From: Oerskovia jenensis
GTDB taxonomy: Bacteria > Actinomycetota > Actinomycetes > Actinomycetales > Cellulomonadaceae
Length of the DNA stretch: 64,000 bases
Assembly (NCBI RefSeq): GCF_016907235.1
Contig: NZ_JAFBBO010000001.1
Span: 744,001-808,000 of the forward strand
Direction: 5' to 3'
Shown one piece after another: positions 5,703 through 32,748 of the stretch (position 1 is its first letter; each line of letters starts with the position of its first letter). The notes beneath the pieces are model-generated. The model had not been told where the DNA came from and searched no databases. It saw nothing but the letters and a program-made list of their open reading frames with translations. The position numbers were made by a program, and so were the translations under genes.

Positions 5703-7654
5703 CGAGCACGTTCCAGGTCGACCTGCACGGCGTCGTCGACCTGCTCGCCCGTCACCTGTACTCGAGCCCGCGCGTCTACCTGCGCGAGCTCCTGCAGAAC
5801 GGCGTGGACGCCATCACCGCGCGCCGGGACGTCGCCGGTGAGGACGCCCCTGCCGCGATCCGGCTGCGGCCCCTGCCCGACGGTTCGCTCGAGGTCACCG
5901 ACACGGGCATCGGGCTGACGCTCGCCGAGGCGGGCGACCTGCTGGCCACGATCGGGCGCAGCTCCAAGCGCGACGTCGAGCTCGGCACGGGCCGCGAGGA
6001 GTTCCTGGGCCAGTTCGGCATCGGTCTGCTGTCCGCGTTCATGGTCGCCGACGAGATCGAGCTCACGTCCCGCTCGGCACGCCTCCTGCCCGACGGCGCA
6101 GCTCCCGCCCCGGTGCGCTGGCGCGGGTTCGCGGACGGCAGCTACGAGCTGACCGAGGTCGCGGGCGACGACCCCACGGTGCCCGCCGAGCCGGGCAGCG
6201 TCGTCCGCCTGCGCCCGCGCCGCGACATGGAGCACTGGCTCGCTCCCGAGACCGTCACGGCTCTCGCGCAGGACTTCGGGTCGCTGCTGCCGGTCGACCT
6301 CCAGGTCGAGGTCCGCCTCGACCTGGGCACGACCGACGAGGTTCACGGGGCCGGCGGGGGCGGCACGGCCGACCACGCCGTCGACGGGTCCCTCGCGGCC
6401 GCCGTCGGCGAGACGTCGCCCACGGTCTGGCGTCGGCTGAGCGGCAAGGAGCTTCCGTGGAGGGAGCAGCACGCGACGCCCGCCGAGCGCGACGCGGCAC
6501 TGACGCGGTACGCCGAGCAGACGCTCGGCTTCACGCCGCTGGCCCGCATCGACCTCGACCTCCCGCTCGCGGGCCTGACGGGCGTCGCGTACGTGCTGCC
6601 CGCGGCGGTCTCCCCCACGACGCCGTCGAGCCACCGCGTGTACCTCAAGCGCATGCTCCTGGGGACCCGGGTCGACGACCTCCTGCCGCCGTGGGCGTTC
6701 TTCGTCCGCTGCGTCCTGGACGCCTCCGCGCTGCGCCCCACCGCGTCGCGCGAGGGGCTCTACGAGGACGAGGTCCTGCTCGCGACGCGCGAGGCCCTCG
6801 GCGCCCAGGTCCGGGAGTGGGCGCTGGCCACGCTGGCCGAGAACTCCCCCGCGAGCCGCGCGTTCCTGCGCGTGCACCACCTCGCCGTGCGGGCTCTCGC
6901 CCTCCAGGACGACGACATGCTCGACCTCGCGGCCCGGGTCCTGCCGTTCGAGACCACCGAGGGGACGGGCACGCTCACTGACCTGGCCGCCACCCTGCCG
7001 GAGGGGGCCCGCCTCCTGTGGACCCCCAGCGTCGAGGAGTTCCGCCGCGTCGCGCCCGTCGCCGCGGCCCAGGGGCTCGGGCTCGTCAACGGCGGGTACG
7101 TCTACGACGCGGACCTGCTCGAACGCGTCTCACGACGCTTCCCGCAGTGGCGGTTGTCCCCCGTGACGGCGCACGACGTCTCGCAGGCGCTCCTGGAGGT
7201 GGACCCGCTGCGCGAGCTCGAGGTCGCCGACGCCGTCCGGGCCGTCGACGGCGCGCTCGCGCCGCAGGACTGCGAGGCGATCGTGCGCGCGTTCGAGCCC
7301 TCGGCGCTGCCCGCGATGCTCCTGCACGACCGCGACGGGGACCACCAGCGCGAGGCGCAGGTCACCGCGGAGGCCGCCGACGACGTCTGGGGTCAGGTGC
7401 TCGCGGGACTCGCGGGTCCTGCCCGTTCCCGGCAGCTCGTGCTCAACGACACCAACGAGACCGTCCGGTCGCTCCTCGCGACGACCGACCCGCAGGTGCT
7501 CGAGGCCGGCGCCCAGTCCCTGTACGTCACCGCGCTGCTGCTCTCCGGCCGGCCCCTGCGGGCCTCGGAGGCCACCCTCATGAACGGCTCGCTCGGGGTC
7601 CTGCTCGACCGCGCGCTGCGCCCCGGCACGACCCCCCTGGAGGAGAACCGATGA
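5699..7654 (+). CDS. Hsp90-family chaperone, divergent HtpG relative
   Basis: A 651-residue ATP-dependent chaperone with all three HtpG parts. The N-terminal GHKL ATPase shows RELLQNGVDAI (Glu30, Asn34, Asp37), DTGIGL at 68-73 and the lid-proximal GQFGIGLLSAF at 104-114. The middle domain has HRVYLKRML and the SREGLYED block equivalent to HtpG's SREIL. The C-terminal dimerisation region keeps LVLNDTNETVRSLL. There is no eukaryotic-style MEEVD tail; the protein ends in EENR. It is much more divergent than a housekeeping HtpG, so it is probably a second, specialised Hsp90. The GTG start overlaps the YbjN stop, and its own stop overlaps the TPR gene's ATG. Reading upstream of 5699 only enters the YbjN gene in another frame. 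Confidence 0.88.
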   Translation: MTSTFQVDLHGVVDLLARHLYSSPRVYLRELLQNGVDAITARRDVAGEDAPAAIRLRPLPDGSLEVTDTGIGLTLAEAGDLLATIGRSSKRDVELGTGREEFLGQFGIGLLSAFMVADEIELTSRSARLLPDGAAPAPVRWRGFADGSYELTEVAGDDPTVPAEPGSVVRLRPRRDMEHWLAPETVTALAQDFGSLLPVDLQVEVRLDLGTTDEVHGAGGGGTADHAVDGSLAAAVGETSPTVWRRLSGKELPWREQHATPAERDAALTRYAEQTLGFTPLARIDLDLPLAGLTGVAYVLPAAVSPTTPSSHRVYLKRMLLGTRVDDLLPPWAFFVRCVLDASALRPTASREGLYEDEVLLATREALGAQVREWALATLAENSPASRAFLRVHHLAVRALALQDDDMLDLAARVLPFETTEGTGTLTDLAATLPEGARLLWTPSVEEFRRVAPVAAAQGLGLVNGGYVYDADLLERVSRRFPQWRLSPVTAHDVSQALLEVDPLRELEVADAVRAVDGALAPQDCEAIVRAFEPSALPAMLLHDRDGDHQREAQVTAEAADDVWGQVLAGLAGPARSRQLVLNDTNETVRSLLATTDPQVLEAGAQSLYVTALLLSGRPLRASEATLMNGSLGVLLDRALRPGTTPLEENR

Positions 7655-9723
7655 CCCGCACGGTCCACGAGGCCAACGAAGCGCTGTCCCACGTCCGCGA
7701 GATGCCGTACGGCGTGGCCCGGAGCACCGCCGCCGAGGCGGAGCTCGCACGGATCACGGCCGACGGCCCGGTCGAGGCACGGGCGTACGCGCTGTTCGTG
7801 CTCGTCGAGTCGTACGTCTGGGGCAACGAGGTCACCAAGGCCTACCTGCCCTTCACCCAGCTCCTGCGGTGGTGGGACGAGCACCCCGAGCACTTCGACG
7901 AGCAGGACACGCACTCGCTGTTCTGGTCGTTCAAGTGGATGGTCGGCAACCTCATGGACTTCCCCGCGGTCCCGGCCGCGCAGATCGAGCGGACACTCGA
8001 CGACATGGAACGTCGGTACGCGGTCGCCGGCAACGGGATGAACGCCGTGACCATGTCCCGGTTCCAGTGGGCTCGTGCCCGGGGGACACAGGACACGGCG
8101 ACGGCGTACGAGTCCTGGGTCGCGACGCCCCGGGACGACTTCTCGCAGTGCGAGGCGTGCGAACCGGGCGACCGTGCCGCCTACCTGTTCGACGCCGGGC
8201 GCCTGGACGAGGGCATCCGTCTCCTGGAGCAGGTCCTCGCGGGCTCCCCCGAGTGCGCGACCGAGCCGGGCGACATGCTCTCCCGGCTCCAGCTCGCCTA
8301 CCTCGAGACGGGGGACGCGGACAAGGCGGCGGCGACCCACCGCAGGGGCCTGCGGCACCTCGACAACGGGGTCTCGATGGAGGGGCCGCAGGGCCGCCAC
8401 ATCGAGTTCCTCGCGCGGACGGGCAACGTCGAGCGTGCGCTGACCCGGATCGTGGAGCACCAGGACCACCTCGTGACCGCGGACTCCCCTCGCGACCGTT
8501 GGGCGTTCCTCCTCAGCGTCGGGACGGCGACGTCGCTGCTCGTGGCGGAGCACGGTGAGCGTCCTGTCGCTCTGCGCGAGGTCCCGGCGTCCACGGTCGC
8601 CGAGCTCGACGCCTGGGTGCGCCGTGAGGCCAGGGAGATCGCCGCCGCGTTCGACGCGCGCAACGGCACCGACGCGACGGCCCGGCGCACCGAAGAGGTG
8701 TGGGCGAGCGTCCCGACGCTCCTGCCCGTGAGCCTGAGCGTGCTCGGGACCGTGAGGGCCGACGCGCCCGTCCCGGCGACGAGCCGGTCCGCCACGGCCG
8801 CGGCCGGAACCACCGAGACCGCCCCGGCGACGGGCGGACCCGCCGACATCTCGGCGTTCACCGCGGGCAGCGCGGTCACGTCCGAGGACCGCGTCGCGCG
8901 AGCCGGGGACGCGCCGTCTCTCGTGGCCAGGGCCGAGGACGTCCGGTCCGACGACCCCGCGGGGTCCGCGGGCCTGTACCAGCGGGCCGCCGCACTGCTC
9001 GAGGCCGAGGGCGCCCTCGACGAGGCGGGCTTCGCGCTGGCAGAGGCTGCACAGCTCGCGGTGGACGAGCAGGACGTCGAGGGCGCCCTCGCGGCCTTCC
9101 CCCGGGCCCTGGCGCTCCTGCGCGCGGGTGGCGTCGCCCCCGCGTACCGGGGGCCGGTCGTGCGGGCCTACGCCCGGCTCACCGCGAGAGCAGGTGACGC
9201 GGGCGCAGGGCTCGTGGCCGTCGACAAGGCTCTGGCGGAGGCCGGCGACACGGTCGTCGACGGGACCTCGGGCACCTCGGGTTCAGCGGGTACAGCGGGT
9301 ACAGCGGGCACAGCGGGCACAGCGGGCACCGTCGGCACTGCGGGTACGGGGATCGCCGCGGCGCAGGAGGAGCGCGCTGCCCGCGAGCGCCGCGAGCTCC
9401 TCGACACGCGCGCCCGGCTCCTGGCCACGCTCGGCGAGCACGAGCGAGCGTCCTCGGCCGCCGAGGCCGTCGCCGAGGAGTACGCCCGCGCGGGCGACCT
9501 GGGCGGCGCGGCGCACGCGTTCTGGCTCGCCGGGACCACGCGCTCCGACGCGGGCGACCTCGAGAGCGGGGTCCTCGCGCTCGAGTCGGCTCTCGACGGT
9601 TTCGGGCTCGCGCAGGACCATGCCTCCCGGGCGCTCGTGGGCAACGAGCTCGTCTCCGTCCTGCGCCGTCTGGGCCGGCACGACGAGGCCGGACAGGTGG
9701 CGGAAGCGGTCAGCCACCGCTGA
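7651..9723 (+). CDS. Tetratricopeptide-repeat protein partnered with the Hsp90 relative
   Basis: A 690-residue, probably cytoplasmic protein with no signal peptide or membrane segment. Helical TPR-like repeats occupy roughly residues 15-310 (including AYLFDAGRLDEGIRLLEQVL and LAYLETGDADKAAATHRRGL) and again about 415-690, with an acidic and alanine-rich second half. They are split by a Thr/Ala linker near 370-410 and a Ser/Gly/Thr/Ala tract near 537-566 encoded by a 9-bp tandem repeat. A QCEAC motif near residue 168 could bind metal, but this is a guess. The ATG overlaps the Hsp90-family stop (ATGA). TPR proteins are the classic Hsp90 co-chaperones in eukaryotes, which makes a functional pairing plausible here. 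It is the last gene of the operon. Confidence 0.82.
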   Translation: MTRTVHEANEALSHVREMPYGVARSTAAEAELARITADGPVEARAYALFVLVESYVWGNEVTKAYLPFTQLLRWWDEHPEHFDEQDTHSLFWSFKWMVGNLMDFPAVPAAQIERTLDDMERRYAVAGNGMNAVTMSRFQWARARGTQDTATAYESWVATPRDDFSQCEACEPGDRAAYLFDAGRLDEGIRLLEQVLAGSPECATEPGDMLSRLQLAYLETGDADKAAATHRRGLRHLDNGVSMEGPQGRHIEFLARTGNVERALTRIVEHQDHLVTADSPRDRWAFLLSVGTATSLLVAEHGERPVALREVPASTVAELDAWVRREAREIAAAFDARNGTDATARRTEEVWASVPTLLPVSLSVLGTVRADAPVPATSRSATAAAGTTETAPATGGPADISAFTAGSAVTSEDRVARAGDAPSLVARAEDVRSDDPAGSAGLYQRAAALLEAEGALDEAGFALAEAAQLAVDEQDVEGALAAFPRALALLRAGGVAPAYRGPVVRAYARLTARAGDAGAGLVAVDKALAEAGDTVVDGTSGTSGSAGTAGTAGTAGTAGTVGTAGTGIAAAQEERAARERRELLDTRARLLATLGEHERASSAAEAVAEEYARAGDLGGAAHAFWLAGTTRSDAGDLESGVLALESALDGFGLAQDHASRALVGNELVSVLRRLGRHDEAGQVAEAVSHR
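9282..9326 (+). repeat. Tandem 9-bp coding repeat, five copies
   Basis: Five copies of a YACAGCGGG-type unit encode repeated Ser/Thr-Ala-Gly triplets in the TPR protein linker. Such tracts vary in copy number by slippage without breaking the frame. Confidence 0.8.
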
Positions 9724-23611: not shown

Positions 23612-25102
23612 TCAGCGCAGCTGCCGGATCCTCAGCGCGACCGCCAGGCTCAACCGGTACCGAGGGTCCCGCAGGTCCACCGAGAGGATCTCCTCGATGC
23701 GGGCGATGCGGTGCTTCATGGTGTTGTAGTGGATGAAGAGCCCCCGGGCGGCCTCGGCGGCGTTGCCGGTCGCGAGGTACGCCTCGAGCGTCTCGCACAG
23801 TCGCGCGCCGCCCGCGCGGTCCGCCTCGACGAGCGGACCGAGCTCGGACACCACGAAGGAGTCCAGCCGGTCGCCCGGGGCAGCGAGAAGCAGTCGCTCG
23901 AGCCGGACCATGTGCTGCGTGACGACGGTCCTGCCGGTCGCGCGGGCGATGGACAAGGACTCCCGGGCGGCACCGTGGCTCGACGCGAGCTCGTGCGCGG
24001 AGCGTGCGACGGTGCCGCACGCCACGGCCGTCTCGGACTTCCAGGCGGCCGCGAGCGCGCTCTGCCAGCCCTCCGCCGTCGACTCCAGGTCGAGCCCGTC
24101 GGACCAGGCCACGAGCGCGACGAGCTCGCGACCCCGGCTCCAGACGATCGACCCGGCAGGCAGCGGCGGCGTCGAGCAGGTCGCGGCCAGGTCCCCCGAC
24201 TCGCCGGGGTCCGTCCCGGCGTCGGCGATCGCGACGACGTACGACCGCGCGGCGTCCCACCCGAACAGGCGCCCCCGGTCGCGCAGCAGCGACTGGTTCG
24301 CGGCCGTGCCGGACACGAGCTCCTCGAGGAACAGGGCGCGCATGCGACGGTCGAGCTCGGCCGAGGCGACGGCCTGCGCCATGTGCATGCCCGCGGCGAA
24401 GCACGCCTGCCGGATGAGGCGGCGCTGCCCGAGCGTCGGCTCCTCCGCGCCGCCGACGAGCACCTGCCCACGGCGGCGGCCCGCGATGGTGACGGGGAAG
24501 CGCCACCAGGCGTCGGCCTCGGAGTCGTCGAGGGCGGGGTGCGTGCTCGCAGCGAGCCCGGACGCACCCAGGATCCGATGTTCCGTGTCGGAGACGGCCA
24601 CGGGCCGGGCCAGGGCGCCCGCGAGCGTGCGAGCGATCTCGTCGAGGCCGCCGCCCGCGAGCGCGACGCCCGTCAGACGCTCCCGGATGGCCTCCGCGCG
24701 GGCCGGGTCGGCGCCGTACTCGGCGAGCACGACGGCCAGGACCGCACCGATGACCTCGTTGAACGCGGTCGACTCCGGCAGGACCAGGATCGGGAACCCG
24801 AGCTCGTCGGCTCGTGCGAGGACGCCCGGCGGGAGCTCCGCGAGGTATCGGCCCGTCTTGACGGCGAGCGCCGCCAGCCCCCTGCGGTGCAGCGCGGTGA
24901 CGAGGTCGGGCAGGTCCTCGATCCGGTCGCGCAGCGGATAGGTCGTGGTCAGGAGCAGCTCGTCGGGGCGCACGAACTCCTCGATGTCCGGCACCTCCAT
25001 GACGTTCACGGCGCGGATCGCGCGGTCGAGGCCGGCCTCGCCCGCGACCGTGCGCGCGGCGGCCAGGACCGGCAGGGTCCGGAGGTCTCGGACGGTCAGC
25101 AT
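23612..25102 (-). CDS. PucR/CdaR-type transcriptional regulator
   Basis: A 496-residue regulator. The N-terminal PucR domain (about 1-120, beginning MLTVRDLRTLPVL) senses a purine or ureide catabolite in known members. A GGDEF-like/CdaR central region follows, and the C-terminal PucR HTH (about 445-495) contains HYNTMKHRIARIEEIL. PucR of Bacillus controls purine-degradation genes in response to allantoin-type compounds. Here it is divergent from the DUF2877-FdrA cluster and almost certainly controls it. ATG 25102 was chosen by homology of the first residues. The reading frame extends far upstream, but that part lies antisense to the catabolic genes. A 15-bp palindrome lies 19 bp upstream. Confidence 0.9.
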   Translation of the reverse strand: MLTVRDLRTLPVLAAARTVAGEAGLDRAIRAVNVMEVPDIEEFVRPDELLLTTTYPLRDRIEDLPDLVTALHRRGLAALAVKTGRYLAELPPGVLARADELGFPILVLPESTAFNEVIGAVLAVVLAEYGADPARAEAIRERLTGVALAGGGLDEIARTLAGALARPVAVSDTEHRILGASGLAASTHPALDDSEADAWWRFPVTIAGRRRGQVLVGGAEEPTLGQRRLIRQACFAAGMHMAQAVASAELDRRMRALFLEELVSGTAANQSLLRDRGRLFGWDAARSYVVAIADAGTDPGESGDLAATCSTPPLPAGSIVWSRGRELVALVAWSDGLDLESTAEGWQSALAAAWKSETAVACGTVARSAHELASSHGAARESLSIARATGRTVVTQHMVRLERLLLAAPGDRLDSFVVSELGPLVEADRAGGARLCETLEAYLATGNAAEAARGLFIHYNTMKHRIARIEEILSVDLRDPRYRLSLAVALRIRQLR

Positions 25103-25121
25103 GGGGGCGACATCGCCTGGT

Positions 25122-25136
25122 TGTCCATAGTGGACA
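25122..25136. promoter_or_regulatory. Palindromic operator candidate in the pucR/catabolic intergenic region
   Basis: TGTCCA (25122-25127) and TGGACA (25131-25136) form a perfect inverted repeat with a 3-nt spacer between pucR and the divergent cluster. It is the only clear symmetric site in the 103-bp gap and is the likely PucR operator. Two related TGTC-type motifs occur just inside the first catabolic gene. Confidence 0.55.
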
Positions 25137-25192
25137 CCATCCCACGAGAACGATGTCCTTTCCGCACGCTGCACCGTCGCCACCCGCGTACC

Positions 25193-25198
25193 TAAGGT
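25193..25198 (+). promoter_or_regulatory. -10 element of the ureido catabolic operon
   Basis: TAAGGT ends 7 nt before the ATG at 25206, predicting a leaderless transcript for the six-gene cluster. Confidence 0.5.
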
Positions 25199-25205
25199 CG
25201 GTGAC

Positions 25206-26099
25206 ATGTCCGATGATGTCGCGCTCCCAGCTCCCCTCGGGCTGCGACGCGACGCCACGTTGTCGCGCGCCGAGCACCTGTCCGCGTTGCAGGTCGTCCA
25301 TGTCGGACACTCCGCGATCGTCCTGGGCGCACCGGGTCGGCTGGTACCCGTCACCGGTCCGGACCGGTGGCTCGTCCCCGGCGGGCTGCACGTCACCTCC
25401 GAGCGCGAGTGGGTCGGCCTGCTGGCCCTGGCCCGGCGCACCGGCGCGACCTGCTCGACCGTCTCGTGCGACACGTGGCTCGACGCCGCGACCCGCTGCG
25501 ACCTGACGCTCCCCGCTCGCCCGTCCCTGCCGTCCCCCGCTGCCGCCGAGGCCGCCTCGGCGGGCGCGCGCGCGGACGCGCTCGCCGCCTGGTCCGCGTC
25601 GTCGCCCCCGCACGCCCCCGCGTCGCTCGACCGGGCCCGCCGTCCCGTGCTCGCGCTCGCCGCAGCAGCCGTCGCCGACCCGTACGAGCCCGACGCCGTC
25701 CGCCGGCTCGTCGGGGCGGGCCCCGGCACGACGCCGACGGGCGACGACCTCCTCGTGGGAATGCTCGCCGGCCTCCTCGCCGGCGCGGACCGGTCACGCG
25801 CGCACCGCCTCGGCGCGACTGTCCTGGGCCTCCTGCACCGCACCACGCGGGCCTCCCGGCACGAGCTCGCGGCAGCCGTCGACGGGCGGTTCGGCGAGGC
25901 GCTCCGCGACGTCGTGACCACCCTCACCGAGCCGGGCGCCACCCCCGACGCCGTGCTTCGCCCCGCCGCACGCCTCGCGACCTGGGGTGCCTCCTCGGGC
26001 CGGGACCAGGCGCACGGTGCGGCGCTCGCCGTGAGCGCGCTCCTCGCGACGAGCGGTCCCTCGAGGCTCGCCGACCACCCCCCGCAGACCACCACGTGA
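25206..26099 (+). CDS. DUF2877 protein, AllH-like subunit
   Basis: A 297-residue soluble protein with the DUF2877 signature GPGTTPTGDDLLVGMLAGL near residues 176-195, a short conserved VPGGLHV region and an Ala-rich middle. In E. coli a DUF2877 protein (AllH/YlbF) is one of three proteins needed for oxamate carbamoyltransferase activity together with FdrA and YlbE. Its place as first gene before fdrA and a DUF1116 gene supports the same complex here. The biochemical role of the subunit is not known to me. It is followed at 23 bp by fdrA. Confidence 0.8.
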   Translation: MSDDVALPAPLGLRRDATLSRAEHLSALQVVHVGHSAIVLGAPGRLVPVTGPDRWLVPGGLHVTSEREWVGLLALARRTGATCSTVSCDTWLDAATRCDLTLPARPSLPSPAAAEAASAGARADALAAWSASSPPHAPASLDRARRPVLALAAAAVADPYEPDAVRRLVGAGPGTTPTGDDLLVGMLAGLLAGADRSRAHRLGATVLGLLHRTTRASRHELAAAVDGRFGEALRDVVTTLTEPGATPDAVLRPAARLATWGASSGRDQAHGAALAVSALLATSGPSRLADHPPQTTT

Positions 26100-26122
26100 A
26101 GCACGAGGAACAGGAACCACAG

Positions 26123-27649
26123 ATGACGCAGACAGCAACCCCCGCAGGCACGGAGGTGCTCGCCACGAGAGTCTTCCCGCGGTTCTACCGCGACTCGGTC
26201 GCGCTCATGGCGCTGGCCTCCGCGCTCGAGAAGCGCGAGGGCATCGTCCGGGTCGGCGCGGTCATGGCGACCCCGGCCAACCTCACGATCCTCGAGGCCT
26301 CGCAGATGCTCCCCGCCGACCTCACCGCAGCCGCCGACGACCTGGTCGTCGTCGCACGCGGGATCGACGAGCCGACCGCGCAGGCCGCGCTCGACGCCGC
26401 GGAGGAGGGCCTCGTCACCGTCGAGACCACGGGCGGTGCACGCGTCGAGCGAGCCCCGCAGACGATCGCGGAAGGGATCGCGGCCGCGACCGCGGCCGAC
26501 CGCCCGGCCACCCTGGCGACGGTCTCGGTGCCCGGGACGTACGCCCCGATCGTCGTCGAGCAGGCGCTCGACGCGGGCCTGCACGTGTTCTGCTTCTCCG
26601 ACAACGTCTCGGTCGCCGACGAGCGCCGCCTCAAGGAGAAGGCCGTGGCCGCCGGCCTGCTCCTCATGGGCCCCGACTGCGGGACGGCCGTCCTCGACGG
26701 GACGCCCCTCGGCTTCGCGAACGCGGTCCGCCCGGGCACGATCGGCATCGTCGCCGCGTCGGGCACGGGCGCGCAGGAGGTCTCGTGCCTCGTCGACCGG
26801 GCCGGGGCCGGGGTGTCCCAGCTCATCGGCGTGGGAGGTCGCGACCTGACCGAGGAGATCGGCGGGCTCATGACCCACCTCGCGCTCGACCGGCTCGAGG
26901 CCGACGAGGCGACGCGCGCCGTCGTCGTCGTGTCCAAGCCGCCGGCGCCCGCCGTCGCCGCCGCCCTGCTCGCGCGCCTCGAGCGCGTCGCCGCGGGCGG
27001 GACCCCCGTCGTCGCGTGCCTCCTGGGTCTCGACGACCGCGGCGAGCCGGGCTCCGACGCCCTCGTCGTGCGGGGCACGCTCGAAGGCGGCGCCCTCGCG
27101 GCCGCCGAGCTCGCCGGGCACCCGCTCGTGATCGACGACCCGCTCCTTCCGGCCCCCCGCGCCGGCGCGGGTCGTGTGCTCGGGCTCTACGCGGGCGGGA
27201 CGCTCGCCTCCGAGGCCACGATCCTCCTCGGCCGGGCGGGGGTCGTCGCCGAGGTGCTCGACCTGGGCGACGACCAGTTCACCGCAGGTCGCCCGCACCC
27301 CATGATCGACCCCCAGGCCCGGGCCGAACGGATCGCCGCCGCAGGCTCCGACCCCACGGTCGCGATCGTGCTGTGCGACGTCGTCCTCGGCTTCGGGTCC
27401 GCCGCCGACCCCGCCACGCCCGTGGCCGAGGCCGTGCGCACGGCGCGCGAGGCCGCCCGGGCCGACGGGCGCGAGCTCGTCGTCATCGCGTCCGTGTGCG
27501 GCGTCGTCGGCGACCACCAAGGACTCGACGCCCAACGGAGCATCCTGCGCGCGGCGGGCATCGTCGTCGCTGACTCCAACGCGGCCGCGGCCCGGGCGGC
27601 CATCGCCCTCACGACCACCGACCCCTCGACCACGGAGGTGACCGCGTGA
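26123..27649 (+). CDS. fdrA: FdrA-family carbamoyltransferase subunit, succinyl-CoA synthetase-like
   Basis: A 508-residue FdrA protein. It resembles the succinyl-CoA synthetase alpha fold: a CoA-binding-like half with LMGPDCGTAVLDG (about 182-194) and GIVAASGTGAQEV, then a ligase-like second half. In E. coli FdrA (AllF) with AllG and AllH catalyses oxalurate + phosphate to oxamate + carbamoyl phosphate. The substrate in this organism could differ. ATG 26123 has an AGGAA Shine-Dalgarno. Its stop overlaps the GTG of the DUF1116 gene. Confidence 0.88.
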   Translation: MTQTATPAGTEVLATRVFPRFYRDSVALMALASALEKREGIVRVGAVMATPANLTILEASQMLPADLTAAADDLVVVARGIDEPTAQAALDAAEEGLVTVETTGGARVERAPQTIAEGIAAATAADRPATLATVSVPGTYAPIVVEQALDAGLHVFCFSDNVSVADERRLKEKAVAAGLLLMGPDCGTAVLDGTPLGFANAVRPGTIGIVAASGTGAQEVSCLVDRAGAGVSQLIGVGGRDLTEEIGGLMTHLALDRLEADEATRAVVVVSKPPAPAVAAALLARLERVAAGGTPVVACLLGLDDRGEPGSDALVVRGTLEGGALAAAELAGHPLVIDDPLLPAPRAGAGRVLGLYAGGTLASEATILLGRAGVVAEVLDLGDDQFTAGRPHPMIDPQARAERIAAAGSDPTVAIVLCDVVLGFGSAADPATPVAEAVRTAREAARADGRELVVIASVCGVVGDHQGLDAQRSILRAAGIVVADSNAAAARAAIALTTTDPSTTEVTA

Positions 27650-29082
27650 CCCCCCACGCCCTCTCAGTACTCAACGTCGGCCTGCCCCTGATCACCGAGG
27701 GCGTCGCCCCGGACCGGGTCACCCAGCTCGACTGGCGTCCGCCCGCCTTCGGCGACGTCGAGGCCGGCCAGCTCATGGTTCTGCTGTCCGACGGCGCCAC
27801 GCGCGAGGCCAACGAGCGCGCCATCGCGGCCGTGCACGCCGTGCGCCCCCAGCTCGTCGGCGTGCGCCCCGCACGCGAGGCGGTCCCGGCGCTCGCCGCG
27901 GGCCACCTCCTGCTGCACGCCGGCCCGCCCCTCGAGATGGCCCGCATGAGCGGACCCGTACGAGGCGCGCTCGTCGGCGCGACCCTGTTCGAAGGATGGG
28001 CGACCGACCCCGAGGAGGCGGCCCGCCTGCTCGACGACGGGACCGTCCGCGTCGAACCCTGCCACCACCACGGCGCGGTCGGTCCGATGGCAGGCGTGCT
28101 GTCCCCCTCGATGCCCGTCCTGGTCGTCACGGACTCGGCCACCGGCACCGACCCCGGAGCGGTGCCGCGAGCCGCCTTCGCGTCGCTCAACGAGGGGCTC
28201 GGCAAGGTCCTGCGGTTCGGCGCCTACGACGACGAGGTCCTGACCCGCCTCGCCTGGATGCGCGACGTCCTCGGCCCCGTGCTGGACCAGGCCGTGCGCC
28301 TCGCCGGCCCCGTCGACGTCACCGCACTCCTCGGACAAGCACTGTCGATGGGCGACGAGGGCCACAACCGCAACGTCGCCGCGACCAGTCTCCTGGCTCG
28401 GCGCTTCGCGCCGACCCTCGCGACCATCGACGGCGGAGTGGAGGTGCTCGCGTTCCTCGCGGGCAACGACCACTTCGCGCTCAACCTCTCGATGGCCGGG
28501 GCGAAGCTCTCGATGGACGCCGCGAGCGGCATCGAGAACTCGACCCTCGTGACCGCCATGGCCCGCAACGGCGTCGAGTTCGGGCTGCGCGTCGCGGGCA
28601 CCGGTGATCGGTGGTTCACCACGCCCGTCGGCCCCGCGGACGGGCTCTTCTTCCCCGGCTACGGCCCCGAGGACGCCAACCCGGACCTGGGCGACTCCGC
28701 GATCACCGAGACCCTCGGCATCGGCGGCTTCGCGATGGCAGCCTCACCCGCCATCACCCGGTTCGTCGGCGGGACGCCCGAGGACGCGCTCGACGCGACC
28801 CGCTCGATGCGCCGCATCACCCTCGCACCGCATCCCGCCTTCCCGCTGCCACCGCTGAACTTCGCGGGCAGCCCGTCCGGCATCGACGTGCTCAAGGTGC
28901 TCGACACCGGCGAGCTCCCCCTCATCAACACCGGCATCGCGCACCGCGAGGCGGGAGTGGGCCAGATCGGTGCGGGCATCGTCACCGCGCCGCCCGGGGT
29001 GTTCCTCGCCGCCGTGCGGGGCCTCGCGCAGGCGCGCGGGCTCGCGCCGGTCGATGCCGTCGATGCCACGGTGCCCTCATGA
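27646..29082 (+). CDS. DUF1116 protein, AllG/YlbE-like subunit
   Basis: A 478-residue DUF1116 protein with conserved HHHGAVGPMAGV (about 143-154), GDEGHNRN (about 236-243) and the NTGIAHREAGVGQIGAG stretch near the C-terminus. DUF1116 proteins are the AllG/YlbE partner of FdrA in oxamate carbamoyltransferase and probably carry part of the active site, given the histidine-rich motif (inference). The GTG start overlaps the fdrA stop and its stop overlaps the carbamate kinase ATG, so stoichiometric production is expected. Confidence 0.85.
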   Translation: MTPHALSVLNVGLPLITEGVAPDRVTQLDWRPPAFGDVEAGQLMVLLSDGATREANERAIAAVHAVRPQLVGVRPAREAVPALAAGHLLLHAGPPLEMARMSGPVRGALVGATLFEGWATDPEEAARLLDDGTVRVEPCHHHGAVGPMAGVLSPSMPVLVVTDSATGTDPGAVPRAAFASLNEGLGKVLRFGAYDDEVLTRLAWMRDVLGPVLDQAVRLAGPVDVTALLGQALSMGDEGHNRNVAATSLLARRFAPTLATIDGGVEVLAFLAGNDHFALNLSMAGAKLSMDAASGIENSTLVTAMARNGVEFGLRVAGTGDRWFTTPVGPADGLFFPGYGPEDANPDLGDSAITETLGIGGFAMAASPAITRFVGGTPEDALDATRSMRRITLAPHPAFPLPPLNFAGSPSGIDVLKVLDTGELPLINTGIAHREAGVGQIGAGIVTAPPGVFLAAVRGLAQARGLAPVDAVDATVPS

Positions 29083-30086
29083 CCGCCACCCAGGAGCGGG
29101 CGCCCCGGCACCCGATCCCGCGCTCGGTCCTCGTGGCGATCGGCGGCAACGCGCTCGTGATCGACGGTGAAGCCGGCTCCGTGCCTCGCCAGCAGGAACG
29201 GGCGCGCGACCTCGCCGCGCTCGTCGCCGACCTCGCCCTGGACGGCTGGACCGTCGTCGTGACCCACGGCAACGGCCCGCAGGTCGGCTACATCGTGCGC
29301 CGCGGAGAGCTCGTCGCCCCCGACGCCGCGATCGAAGGTCTGCCCGAGCTGCCCCTGTGGCTCGCGGTCGCCGACTCCCAGGGCGGGATCGGGCACATGC
29401 TCACGCTCGCGATCGACTCCGCGCTCGCGGCGCGAGGCGCCACCACCCGGGCGGCGGCCGTCCTCACGCACGCCGTCGTCGAACGCGACGACCCGGCGTT
29501 CGCGCGCCCCACCAAGCCCATCGGCGGACAGCTCACGCCCGACGTGGCCAGGGTCCGCGCCGCACAGGAAGGGTGGACCGTCACGGAGATCAGCGCCGGC
29601 GTCTTCCGCCGTGTCGTCCCGAGCCCCGTCCCGCGAGAGATCCTCGAGGCCGACAGCCTGCGGACCCTGATCCACGACGGCGCGATCGTCGTCGCCGCCG
29701 GTGGCGGCGGTATCCCCGTGGTCCAGGCCGACGGTGGCTACGAAGCCGTCGACGCCGTCATCGACAAGGACCGTGCCTCGGCGCTTCTCGCCGAGCAGAT
29801 CGGCATAGAGACCCTGGTCCTCGTCACCGGCGTGGACCAGGTCTACGTGGACTACGGGACTCCCGGCCAGCGCGCGCTCGGGACCGTCACGTCGCACGAG
29901 ATGCGCGAGCACGCGGCCGCGGGGCAGTTCCCGGCGGGATCCATGGGCCCCAAGGTCGAGTCGTCGGTCGAGTTCGTCGATCGCACCGGCGGCCGAGCCG
30001 TCATCACGTCGCTGCCCGGAGTCCGGGAGGCGCTCACCGAGTTCTCGGGAACACACATCGTTCCCACATCATCGAAGGAGATCTGA
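29079..30086 (+). CDS. Carbamate kinase
   Basis: A 335-residue amino-acid-kinase-fold enzyme that in the catabolic direction makes ATP and carbamate from carbamoyl phosphate and ADP; carbamate then falls apart to ammonia and CO2. Motifs: AIGGNAL near residue 24, THGNGPQVG near 65, GGGGIPV near 209, VIDKDRASALLA near 227 and GSMGPKVE near the end. It follows the transcarbamoylase-like genes directly and would harvest their product. The 20-residue N-terminal extension (ATQERAPRHPIPRS) is not part of the fold. It is equivalent to E. coli AllK rather than to an arginine-deiminase-linked ArcC, since no arc genes are nearby. Confidence 0.93.
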   Translation: MTATQERAPRHPIPRSVLVAIGGNALVIDGEAGSVPRQQERARDLAALVADLALDGWTVVVTHGNGPQVGYIVRRGELVAPDAAIEGLPELPLWLAVADSQGGIGHMLTLAIDSALAARGATTRAAAVLTHAVVERDDPAFARPTKPIGGQLTPDVARVRAAQEGWTVTEISAGVFRRVVPSPVPREILEADSLRTLIHDGAIVVAAGGGGIPVVQADGGYEAVDAVIDKDRASALLAEQIGIETLVLVTGVDQVYVDYGTPGQRALGTVTSHEMREHAAAGQFPAGSMGPKVESSVEFVDRTGGRAVITSLPGVREALTEFSGTHIVPTSSKEI

Positions 30087-30775
30087 TGTTCACGATCGAG
30101 GCCGAGCCGTACCCGTTCGACCTGCCACCGACCCGGACGGCACTGCTGTGCATCGACTTCCAGCGCGACTTCGTCGAGGCCGGCGGATTCGGCGAGTCCC
30201 TGGGCAACGACGTCTCGACGCTGCGCGGCACGATCGCCCCCACGCGCACCGTCCTCGACGCCTTCCGCGCCAAGGGCTGGCCCGTCATCCACACCCGCGA
30301 GGGACACCGGGCCGACCTCACGGACCTCTTCGCCTCCAAGCGCGACCGCGGCAACCCGACGCTGCGCATCGGCGACGAGGGCCCCATGGGGCGCATCCTC
30401 ACCCGCGGCTCCGCCGGGCACGACATCGTCCCCGAGCTCGCCCCGATCGACGGCGAGGTCGTCCTCGACAAGCCGGGCAAGGGAGCGTTCTACGGCACCG
30501 ACCTCGAGGTCGTCCTGCGCGCCCAGGGCATCACCCACCTCGTGCTCACGGGCGTCACGACCGAGGTGTGCGTGCAGTCCACCGCACGGGAGGCCAACGA
30601 CCGCGGCTTCGACTGCCTCGTCCTGTCGGACTGCACGGGCTCCTACTTCCCCGAGTTCCACGAGGTCTCGCTGAAGATGTTCTCGGCCCAGGGCGGCATC
30701 GTCGGCTGGGTCACGGCCTCGGCCGACCTGCTGGCCGGCGTGGCCGAACCCGTCCTCGCGGAGGTCTCCCGGTGA
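30086..30775 (+). CDS. Isochorismatase-fold cysteine hydrolase, biuret-hydrolase-like
   Basis: A 229-residue amidohydrolase of the isochorismatase superfamily. The Asp-Lys-Cys triad is visible: Asp24 in CIDFQRDF, a lysine in DKPGKGAF (about 129) and Cys162 in TTEVCVQST. Segments such as VIHTREGHRADL, GRILTRG, DIVPEL and DKPGKG closely match what I remember of Rhizobium biuret hydrolase (BiuH), which turns biuret into allophanate and ammonia. Other ureido or amide substrates (for example oxamate) remain possible. A strong AAGGAGAT Shine-Dalgarno precedes the ATG, which overlaps the carbamate kinase stop (TGATG). Confidence 0.85.
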   Translation: MFTIEAEPYPFDLPPTRTALLCIDFQRDFVEAGGFGESLGNDVSTLRGTIAPTRTVLDAFRAKGWPVIHTREGHRADLTDLFASKRDRGNPTLRIGDEGPMGRILTRGSAGHDIVPELAPIDGEVVLDKPGKGAFYGTDLEVVLRAQGITHLVLTGVTTEVCVQSTAREANDRGFDCLVLSDCTGSYFPEFHEVSLKMFSAQGGIVGWVTASADLLAGVAEPVLAEVSR

Positions 30776-32748
30776 GCGTCCACCTCGCGCCGCGCACCGC
30801 GCCCGGTGCCGCCCCCGTCAAGGTCCGCTGGTGGGTGCCCGGGGACTGGAACGGCCTGTTCGGGCTCGGCACCAACGTCCTGCTGAACGTCATCGTCCTC
30901 ACGGGGCTGTCCCTGACCGTCGTGCACATCCCCGAGGACATCGTGTTCGGGCGCCTGCTGCCCGCCCTCGGCATCGCCCTGCCGCTCGGCAACATCTGGT
31001 ACGCGTTCCTGGCCCGCCAGCTCGCACGCCGTGAGAACCGCACCGACGTCACAGCGCTGCCCTACGGACCGTCCGTGCCGCACACGTTCATCGTGGTCCT
31101 CGTCGTCATGCTGCCCGTGTACCTGCAGTCGGGCGACCCCCTCAAGGCCTGGCGAGCCGGGCTCGCCTGGGCCCTGATCATCGGCCTCATCGTCTGCCTC
31201 GGTGCCCTCGTGGGGCCCTGGATCCGCAGGTGGACGCCGCGTGCGGCCCTCCTCGGCGCCCTCGCCGGCATCTCGATCACCTTCATCGCGATGCGTCCTG
31301 CCGCCCAGATGTGGCAGGCGCCGTGGATCGGGCTCTGCGCGTTCGCGTTCATCCTCGTCGGGTGGATGGCCAACCGGAAGATGCCGTTCAACGCACCGGT
31401 CGGCCTCGTCGCCGTCCTCGTCTCGACCGCGCTCGCCTGGTTCGCCGTCGCACTCGGATGGTCCGACATCCTGCAGCCCACCGCAGTCTCCGAGTCGCTG
31501 TCGAACCTCTCGCTCAGCCTCCCGATGCCCGGCGGCGAGGTCCTCGAAGGACTCACCGACATCGCCCCGCTGCTCGCGTCCGCGATCCCGCTCGGCATCT
31601 ACAACTTCACCGAGGGCATGACGAACGTCGAGTCCGCCGCCGCCGCGGGTGACCGCTACTCGATGCGCCAGGTGCTCATGGCCGACGGTCTCGGCGCCGT
31701 CGTCGGCTCCTTCCTCGGCTCACCCTTCCCGCCGGCCGTGTACATCGGCCACCCGGGCTGGAAGAAGGTCGGAGGCCGCATCGGATACTCGCTCGTCACC
31801 GGCATCGTCGTCGCGATCGTGTGCTTCACCGGACTCGTCGGCACCTTCCTCGTGATCTTCCCCATGCAGGCCCTCGTCCCGGTCCTGCTGTTCATCGGGC
31901 TCGTCATGGGAGCGCAGGCCACGAGTGTCTCGGCCCTTCGCTACGCGCCCGCGATCGTCCTGGCGTTCCTGCCCAGCATCGCCGAGTGGGCCACCGGCCA
32001 GGTCGACTCCGCGCTCGGCGCGGCCGGGACCAGCGCGGGCGAGGTCGGGCTCGACGCGCTCGTGAGCAACGGCGTGATCTACGACGGCATGAAGCTGCTC
32101 GGCCAGGGCGCGGTGCTCGTCGGCGTGCTCCTCGGGGCCATCGCGTGCTTCGTCATCGACCGGCGCATGTACGCCGCCGCGACCACGGCGCTGATCGCCG
32201 CGGGCCTGTCGTTCGTGGGTCTCGTCAACGCCTACGAGATCGGGTGGAACGCCTCCCCCGGCGTCACGATCGGCTACGTGATCCTCGCGGCGATCCTCGC
32301 GGGCTTCGGCTGGCACGCCCGCGACGTGAAGGACGACGAGCTCGACGACGGCCTCCTGTTCGTCAACGGGACCCTCATGCGCGGACTCGAGCTGCACGGC
32401 AACCTGTCCGGTGCCGAGCTCCTCGAAGAGACCTCCACCGCCCCGATCTACCGCGTCCACACCATCGGGGACGTCCACCCCGGCATGTACCCCGTCGACG
32501 AGGAGACCGGCGAGAAGGGCGCCTCGATCTCCGGCGAGCTGTACGCCATCCCGCTCGACGTCCTGCTCAAGGTCATCGAAGGAGAGCCGGCGGGCCTGTT
32601 CCGCGGCCCGGTCCGGCTCGCCGACGGTCGCGTCGTGCCAGGCATCCGCTACGACCGCGAGATGGCCCAGGCGCACCCCGAGATCACCGATCACGGCGGT
32701 TGGCGCGAGTACGTCGCGGCCCGCGACGGGGCCGCCGCGAGCACCTGA
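30772..32748 (+). CDS. NCS2/AzgA-like permease fused to an allophanate-hydrolase C-terminal-like domain
   Basis: A 658-residue protein with two parts. Residues about 25-525 are a polytopic permease of the xanthine/uracil (NCS2/AzgA) type, with ALPYGPSVPH early and the conserved NFTEGMTNVESAAAAGDRY block. Residues about 528-658 are soluble and resemble the C-terminal domain of allophanate hydrolase (AtzF/DUR1 type): LFVNGTLMRG, STAPIYRVHTIGDVHPGMYP, SGELYAIPLDVLLKVI and GRVVPGIRYD. In allophanate hydrolases this domain acts on the N-carboxycarbamate intermediate or in assembly. I do not know of a described transporter with this tail. The GTG start overlaps the hydrolase stop. It is the last gene of the operon and is followed by a strong hairpin. 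Confidence 0.85.
   Translation: MSVHLAPRTAPGAAPVKVRWWVPGDWNGLFGLGTNVLLNVIVLTGLSLTVVHIPEDIVFGRLLPALGIALPLGNIWYAFLARQLARRENRTDVTALPYGPSVPHTFIVVLVVMLPVYLQSGDPLKAWRAGLAWALIIGLIVCLGALVGPWIRRWTPRAALLGALAGISITFIAMRPAAQMWQAPWIGLCAFAFILVGWMANRKMPFNAPVGLVAVLVSTALAWFAVALGWSDILQPTAVSESLSNLSLSLPMPGGEVLEGLTDIAPLLASAIPLGIYNFTEGMTNVESAAAAGDRYSMRQVLMADGLGAVVGSFLGSPFPPAVYIGHPGWKKVGGRIGYSLVTGIVVAIVCFTGLVGTFLVIFPMQALVPVLLFIGLVMGAQATSVSALRYAPAIVLAFLPSIAEWATGQVDSALGAAGTSAGEVGLDALVSNGVIYDGMKLLGQGAVLVGVLLGAIACFVIDRRMYAAATTALIAAGLSFVGLVNAYEIGWNASPGVTIGYVILAAILAGFGWHARDVKDDELDDGLLFVNGTLMRGLELHGNLSGAELLEETSTAPIYRVHTIGDVHPGMYPVDEETGEKGASISGELYAIPLDVLLKVIEGEPAGLFRGPVRLADGRVVPGIRYDREMAQAHPEITDHGGWREYVAARDGAAAST

Follow-up and report, generated by a model that had tools for sequence, protein, structure and literature searches.

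The DNA analysed here, referred to as the window, is a stretch of 64,000 nt from Oerskovia jenensis (NZ_JAFBBO010000001.1, 744,001-808,000), and all coordinates count from its first letter. It contains a six-gene operon on the plus strand that combines the subunits of an oxamate carbamoyltransferase-like complex with a carbamate kinase, a hydrolase and a permease. A pucR-type regulator gene (23612-25102, minus strand; PucR N-domain, GGDEF-like and HTH_30) is located divergently. The operon starts with allH (DUF2877; 25206-26099; PF11392), followed by allF (FdrA; 26123-27649; PF00549; PDB 3dmy), the single allG copy of the genome (DUF1116; 27646-29082; PF06545 with 295.6 bits; PDB 3clq) and a carbamate kinase gene (29079-30086; PF00696). 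All three subunit families of the oxamate carbamoyltransferase AllFGH were present according to Pfam. AllF scored 417 bits with PRK06091, slightly under the cut-off of 433, and the kinase was over the cut-off of PRK12352 (307 bits, cut-off 266) and under that of TIGR00746 (309 bits, cut-off 358). An isochorismatase-like hydrolase (30086-30775) and a permease (30772-32748) complete the set. Genes and positions agreed with an earlier note on this DNA, the reading frames were intact, and the Pfam domains across the locus were PucR, AllH, Ligase_CoA (FdrA), AllG, AA_kinase and Isochorismatase. Overlaps of 1-4 bp, described there for almost all genes, were found at four of the five operon junctions; allH and allF are separated by a 23-bp gap.

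The hydrolase, which the earlier note had called BiuH-like, was instead of the TrtA type. Six positions separate TrtA from BiuH, with F35, N41, A134, E160, Y187 and I205 as the TrtA consensus (PMC7948467). The window hydrolase carried the TrtA residue at all six positions and the BiuH residues (Y, Y, S, D, T and V) at none. The catalytic triad D24/K129/C162 and Q202 were kept. Identity was 58% to the Herbaspirillum TrtA and 54% to the Rhodococcus BiuH, and the closest PDB entry was 6xix, a TrtA. With 273.5 bits, the protein missed the cut-off of 370 of the BiuH equivalog NF050097 (NCBIfam). The missed cut-off and the six residues led to the rejection of a BiuH identity, and the gene product is a predicted triuret hydrolase. 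The activity of TrtA on biuret is four to five orders lower (PMC7948467). Two other isochorismatases (L126, L127) had no match to the hydrolase profile and were rejected as a second TrtA/BiuH enzyme elsewhere.

A second detail missed by the earlier note is that the permease ends in AH_C, the C-terminal domain of allophanate hydrolase. The domain lies within the last 130 residues (residues 529-649; 32356-32718, plus strand; PF21986 with 97.4 bits). An AlphaFold model of the fusion had a predicted local distance difference test score (pLDDT) of 77.9 and a predicted template modelling score (pTM) of 0.69. In Foldseek searches, its membrane part resembled UraA/SLC23 and SLC26 transporters (UraA with E 7e-7 and a template modelling score by target of 0.55), and its C-terminal part matched PDB 5c5z (E 1e-8) and the Kluyveromyces lactis allophanate hydrolase. 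The window domain carried the subfamily motif NGTLMRGL versus GAHxSGx or a similar motif in the aligned AtzF rows. PDB 5c5z is a free-standing AH_C, and the crystal structure is titled 'c4763, a uropathogenic E. coli-specific protein'; a literature search on c4763 yielded no paper on that protein by title.

The O. jenensis genome consists of one 4.45-Mb contig, is 99.92% complete and contained one AllG and one AH_C. The absence of an allophanate hydrolase amidase domain, noted earlier for the window, held genome-wide: the sole PF01425 match in 4.45 Mb was GatA, and no allophanate hydrolase that could be co-regulated from elsewhere in the genome was found. The same applied to allantoin genes, with no match for AllD and a best allantoinase score of 261 bits versus a cut-off of 358. 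Neither urease nor a BiuH over the cut-off was found in this genome. The search for cyanuric acid hydrolase matched neither this genome nor any control genome.

Sample A comprised the best 80 of 559 confirmed AllG loci, which were nearest to the query and are biased to near relatives. Profile annotation placed a TrtA/BiuH-type hydrolase at 31 of these loci. The families linked in the earlier note co-occurred at them, with AllF at 31/31, carbamate kinase at 28/31 and AllH at 26/31. A separate or fused AH_C was present at 22/31, AtzF at 2/31 and cyanuric acid hydrolase-family genes at none. The 49 loci lacking such a hydrolase held AH_C once (L089, where the contig starts at allG), AtzF twice and an AtzD-family gene ten times. 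Separate AH_C and AtzF were found together at none of the 80 loci, AtzF's own AH_C being left uncounted. The hydrolase was of the TrtA type at 30 of the 31 loci; the six positions were readable in 26 enzymes, with four to six TrtA-like residues, and four enzymes were partial (L058, L072, L091 and L095). BiuH-type enzymes occurred at three loci, all of Nitrospiraceae (L068, L072 and L092). The module was found in Actinomycetota, Chloroflexota and Pseudomonadota, including Escherichia coli ColV plasmid p1ColV5155, which carries, side by side, the hydrolase gene, allH, allF, allG, the kinase gene, a free-standing AH_C of 129 amino acids, a CodB-like permease gene and a LysR gene. In a phylum-wide sample, AllG was detected in 49/396 genomes. 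Setting aside the window's own match among 52, and counting two G231 matches in one region once, left 50 regions (sample B), which came from 48 further genomes of this phylum. The hydrolase was present in five of the regions, an AtzD-family gene in 12 and AllD in two.

Twenty-six AH_C domains were listed. Five were fused to the permease and formed one clade (window, L045-L048), two were fused to the kinase in one lineage (L089, L119), 18 were free-standing within 190 bp of a permease gene and one had no permease found (L092). On these counts, a tie of AH_C to the permease only was rejected. At L050, L066 and L071, two window-type permeases adjoined in the module and no AH_C was found.

The gene content of whole genomes was counted in the window genome and 38 chosen genomes. 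These represented all hydrolase-linked loci of sample A except L068 (30/31), L073, L089 and L106, three of the five hydrolase loci of sample B (without L147 and L151), and the cyanurate-type L082 and L070. The AtzF profile count covers the 38 genomes, and AtzF of the window genome was judged via the amidase search. BiuH was over the cut-off in 6/39 genomes. BiuH, AtzF and urease were all under the cut-off in 14/39 (G000 and the genomes of L045, L047, L049, L050, L052, L053, L055, L060, L070, L074, L089, L095 and L097), several of which are drafts or metagenome-assembled genomes in which absence is weak.

A sister module with a different first enzyme was identified on the Citrobacter plasmid pNFYY361-1. 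There, genes for a cyanuric acid hydrolase and an NCS2 permease precede the allHFG-kinase set, and the cluster held neither a TrtA/BiuH-type hydrolase nor AH_C. Among PDB sequences, the ring-opening enzyme was nearest to cyanuric acid hydrolase with 582 bits versus 327 for barbiturase. The 7.6-kb module (L005:3722-11363) sits between IS26 copies in this plasmid. It was present in 49 plasmid records from nine gammaproteobacterial genera with 97.6-100% identity, and the match covered 80% or more of its length in 47 records. Sources listed for these plasmids include human clinical samples, showers and water; selection of the module by cyanuric acid from chlorinated isocyanurate disinfectants is a speculation.

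The cyanurate-module rows nested in the TrtA-linked clade, both in an AllG tree of 88 rows and in a tree of 41 rows built from AllF, AllG and carbamate kinase. A grouping of 13 TrtA-linked rows without the cyanurate module was rejected by the approximately unbiased (AU) test (p-AU 0.0025). TrtA and cyanuric acid hydrolase both produce carboxybiuret (PMC7948467). Most simply, the upstream enzyme would have been replaced, with AllFGH retaining its substrate. Since both upstream enzymes make carboxybiuret, this compound is most likely what AllFGH phosphorolyses here.

The operon is predicted to encode a phosphorolytic, ATP-conserving triuret pathway, a reading that we hold with moderate confidence. 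The permease would import triuret, and the TrtA-type hydrolase, judged by its residues, would convert it to carboxybiuret and ammonia. Genomic context and phylogeny suggest that AllF-AllG-AllH would then form carbamoyl phosphate and allophanate from carboxybiuret and inorganic phosphate (Pi), with phosphate attacking the terminal carbamoyl group. This step is modelled on the E. coli complex with oxalurate, in which the bond is of the same type. E. coli AllFGH interconverts oxamate and carbamoyl phosphate with oxalurate and Pi (PMC11326118). Carbamate kinase would transfer the phosphoryl group to ADP, yielding ATP and carbamate, and the latter would decay to ammonia and CO2. Allophanate may be disposed of with the help of AH_C, being phosphorolysed in its turn to carbamoyl phosphate and carbamate or else losing CO2 to become urea, and AtzF would act at the allophanate node in some related systems. 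By stoichiometry, one ATP would be gained per triuret, or two if allophanate were also phosphorolysed. The joint ureide pathway of the earlier note was supported by the context as far as AllFGH downstream of the hydrolase and ATP formation by the kinase are concerned. Its substrates, biuret or oxalurate, were not favoured and are replaced here by triuret via carboxybiuret, so that the note's interpretation is partly supported.

Allophanate as a co-product was also suggested by links to atzF. An operon of a GntR gene, an NrtA-type ABC transporter and atzF (L178:3913-9624) occurred in 26 plasmid records, and 24 of these, equal to 24 of the 49 module records, also carried the cyanurate module according to listings intersected by eye. 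The cyanurate module itself held neither AtzE nor BiuH, and no genome-wide atzE search was made. The co-occurrence with atzF fits allophanate as a co-product. At L069, L073 and L106, atzF lies divergently beside allF-allG-kinase, in two pieces at L106, and no BiuH over the cut-off was detected genome-wide. No TrtA was found in the stretches of L073 and L106; a family member of 286-290 bits, below the cut-off, was present in each genome. All three need a source of allophanate, which AllFGH acting on carboxybiuret would supply. Two Nitrospira loci differed in the gene following the TrtA-type hydrolase, which was atzF in L072, where the hydrolase is in two pieces, and AH_C in L092. Given the same place of the two genes, AH_C and AtzF may serve the same pathway node. 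The role of AH_C does not follow from AllFGH, because the cyanurate module has no AH_C. In work by Fan from 2013, the AH_C relative in the K. lactis allophanate hydrolase is said to be a decarboxylating domain. AH_C may act as a decarboxylase of carboxybiuret. Of all steps in the proposed pathway, that of AH_C is held with the least certainty.

Several observations weigh against the proposed triuret pathway, among them the missing AH_C of the cyanurate module. Neither AH_C nor AtzF was present at 7/31 hydrolase-linked loci (L050, L053, L066, L071 and the short contigs L068, L091 and L095). The kinase was missing from three (L066, L071 and L091) and AllH was not found at five. At L147 and L151, the hydrolase and a permease stand beside a distant AllG, and no AllF or kinase was found. 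The L119 hydrolase (6933-7661) keeps the triad and has lost E72 and Q202; its genome encodes four members of the hydrolase family in all, one of them a BiuH over the cut-off. The L046 hydrolase has V at position 35. Allophanate hydrolase (AtzF) was encoded in 11/38 genomes. Grouping of a narrower set of 11 TrtA-linked rows gave p 0.074, a grouping that still leaves the cyanurate module among TrtA-linked rows, and both groups in the AU test were named after the tree was seen. The link between atzF and the module may also reflect hitchhiking on near-identical plasmids.

Urease, present in 22/39 genomes, is a further such point and would suit a different substrate. AH_C, whose relative is said to decarboxylate, is associated with TrtA modules. 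Carboxybiuret is known to lose CO2 spontaneously, turning into biuret with a half-life of about 20 min (PMC7948467), and AllFGH could therefore in truth act on biuret. Carboxybiuret would then be decarboxylated by AH_C or spontaneously, biuret and Pi would give carbamoyl phosphate and urea, and urea would be excreted or hydrolysed by urease. We consider this unlikely, as co-occurring atzF would have no obvious substrate, urease was not found in the window genome and 16/38 others, and oxalurate, the known substrate, has a carboxylate that is missing from biuret. In another scheme, proposed for nitrifiers, TrtA and AllFGHK would be two separate pathways in one operon, for triuret and for imported oxalurate (PMC12625717). 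AllFGH activity has been shown only with oxalurate and oxamate (PMC11326118), and BiuH is also present at comammox-type loci, as is AtzF in L072. The linkage of TrtA and AllFGHK across several phyla, the fusions of carbamate kinase with AH_C in L089 and L119 (one lineage) and the 14/39 genomes with BiuH, AtzF and urease under the cut-off, where the TrtA product would lead nowhere known, make two separate pathways clearly improbable.

The two models of the earlier note were not favoured either. In one, hydrolysis of biuret yields allophanate, from which AllFGH makes carbamoyl phosphate and carbamate by phosphorolysis. The hydrolase does belong to the BiuH/TrtA family, and phosphorolysis of allophanate would chemically resemble that of oxalurate. 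However, the six TrtA residues, the BiuH equivalog score of 273.5 of 370 bits and the weak activity of TrtA on biuret speak against it, and allophanate is not a direct product of cyanuric acid hydrolase; this model is highly improbable. In the other, oxalurate is phosphorolysed to oxamate, which the hydrolase deamidates. An oxamate amidohydrolase, HpxW, exists in Klebsiella. The interconversion of oxalurate and oxamate by E. coli AllFGH is likewise in line with this model (PMC11326118). It is hardly credible for the window, in whose genome AllD had no match and no allantoinase exceeded the cut-off. The window AllG also falls outside the allantoin-linked pair L039/L043 of E. coli and Enterococcus, both of them long branches, and it would make no sense for the nested sister module to have cyanuric acid hydrolase in place of the hydrolase. 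The triuret pathway via carboxybiuret is retained as the preferred reading.

The predicted system shares features with several known ones. Like the E. coli oxamate transcarbamylase AllFGH with AllK (PMC11326118), it consists of the same three subunits and a carbamate kinase, with the same predicted bond cleaved (R-CO-NH-CO-NH2 + Pi). Unlike in E. coli, the set belongs to a different clade (the E. coli and Enterococcus rows being long branches), has neither AllD nor an allantoinase over the cut-off in its genome, occurs together with a TrtA-type hydrolase, AH_C and a different permease, and has carboxybiuret as predicted substrate. The TrtA-TrtB-BiuH-AtzF pathway of Herbaspirillum and Rhizobium has the same first enzyme, TrtA, and the same first product, carboxybiuret (PMC7948467), but BiuH and AtzF over the cut-off are absent from the window genome, and hydrolysis is replaced by a predicted phosphorolysis with ATP recovery. 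The AtzD-AtzEG-AtzH-AtzF route of Pseudomonas sp. ADP likewise runs via 1-carboxybiuret and allophanate (PMC6219798). In contrast, phosphorolysis is predicted in place of the AtzE deamination, and cyanuric acid hydrolase is found only in the plasmid sister module.

The earlier note's description of the pathway as undescribed needs to be narrowed, as the gene adjacency is published. In loci of comammox bacteria and ammonia-oxidising archaea, trtA/biuH adjoins allFGHK with the same gene families; these were read as two degradation functions next to each other, for triuret/biuret and for oxalurate, and the passages on these loci do not mention AH_C (PMC12625717). The E. coli genomic region GR 29 contains the same cluster of RutB-like, FdrA, DUF1116, YqeA-like kinase and CodB-like genes and was read via RutB, CodB and FdrA homology as pyrimidine/nitrogen metabolism (PMC12928451). 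The joint pathway itself was not found in searches limited to open-licence papers. If true, it would assign a function to a cluster of several phyla and E. coli ColV plasmids and, in its cyanurate form, to a mobile module of nine gammaproteobacterial genera. Where allFGHK adjoins trtA or cyanuric acid hydrolase, its standard annotation as an oxalurate degradation set would need correction. An ATP-conserving step is predicted for the degradation of triuret and of cyanuric acid, for which the described routes found, to the extent of the passages concerned, only hydrolyse.

More tentatively, with the odds slightly against it, AllFGH complexes could be general acylurea phosphorylases (R-CO-NH-CO-NH2 + Pi -> R-CO-NH2 + carbamoyl phosphate). 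The enzymes acting before them would number four or more, with oxalurate delivered by ureidoglycolate dehydrogenase, carboxybiuret by TrtA or by cyanuric acid hydrolase, and ureidomalonate by barbiturase. Free-standing AH_C would be a new enzyme of the allophanate node. If this generalisation were true, bacteria would gain ATP in each case, from allantoin, triuret, cyanurate or barbiturate. Cyanuric acid hydrolase was found associated with the set a second time in Rubneribacter (L070), which belongs to another AllG clade and has no kinase in the stretch. Three actinobacterial ring-opening enzymes were compared with PDB sequences, of which L113 and L132 were nearest to barbiturase and L070 to cyanuric acid hydrolase. 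Cyanuric acid hydrolase and barbiturase are not told apart by the NCBIfam model of the former, which the barbiturase-like L113 also passes. The ring-opening enzymes of L085, L098, L101, L102, L108, L109, L121 and 11/12 of sample B lay outside the PDB comparison. In actinobacteria, ring-opening amidohydrolase genes were seen near allF-allG at L113, L132, L134, L139, L149, L150, L164, L167-L169, L172, L173 and L175. These loci often also hold allH, a kinase and an NCS2-type permease, and the likeness of L113 and L132 to barbiturase suggests a ureidomalonate variant.

PucR probably regulates the operon via a candidate palindromic operator, TTGTCCATAGTGGACA (25121-25136, no strand), within the 103-bp gap between pucR and allH. 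At L045, L046 and L047, similar YGTCC-N5-GGAC motifs were seen by eye in the corresponding gap, unlike at L049. The loose pattern YGTCC-N5-GGACR alone is near chance, with five matches in the window versus 1.9 expected, a second one lying within allH (25295-25309).

Two further loci deserve mention. In the yahE-yahJ region of E. coli K-12 (L040:5926-12508), YahF, YahG and YahI grouped with AllF/AllG of L070, both on long branches, and YahJ is an amidohydrolase; this operon possibly encodes an acylurea pathway. On plasmid pAD51 of Arthrobacter sp. D5-1 (L006:10007-12694), an allG fragment and a carbamate kinase gene lie directly before atzC, whose product makes cyanuric acid in atrazine breakdown, and the two look like a remnant of such a module.

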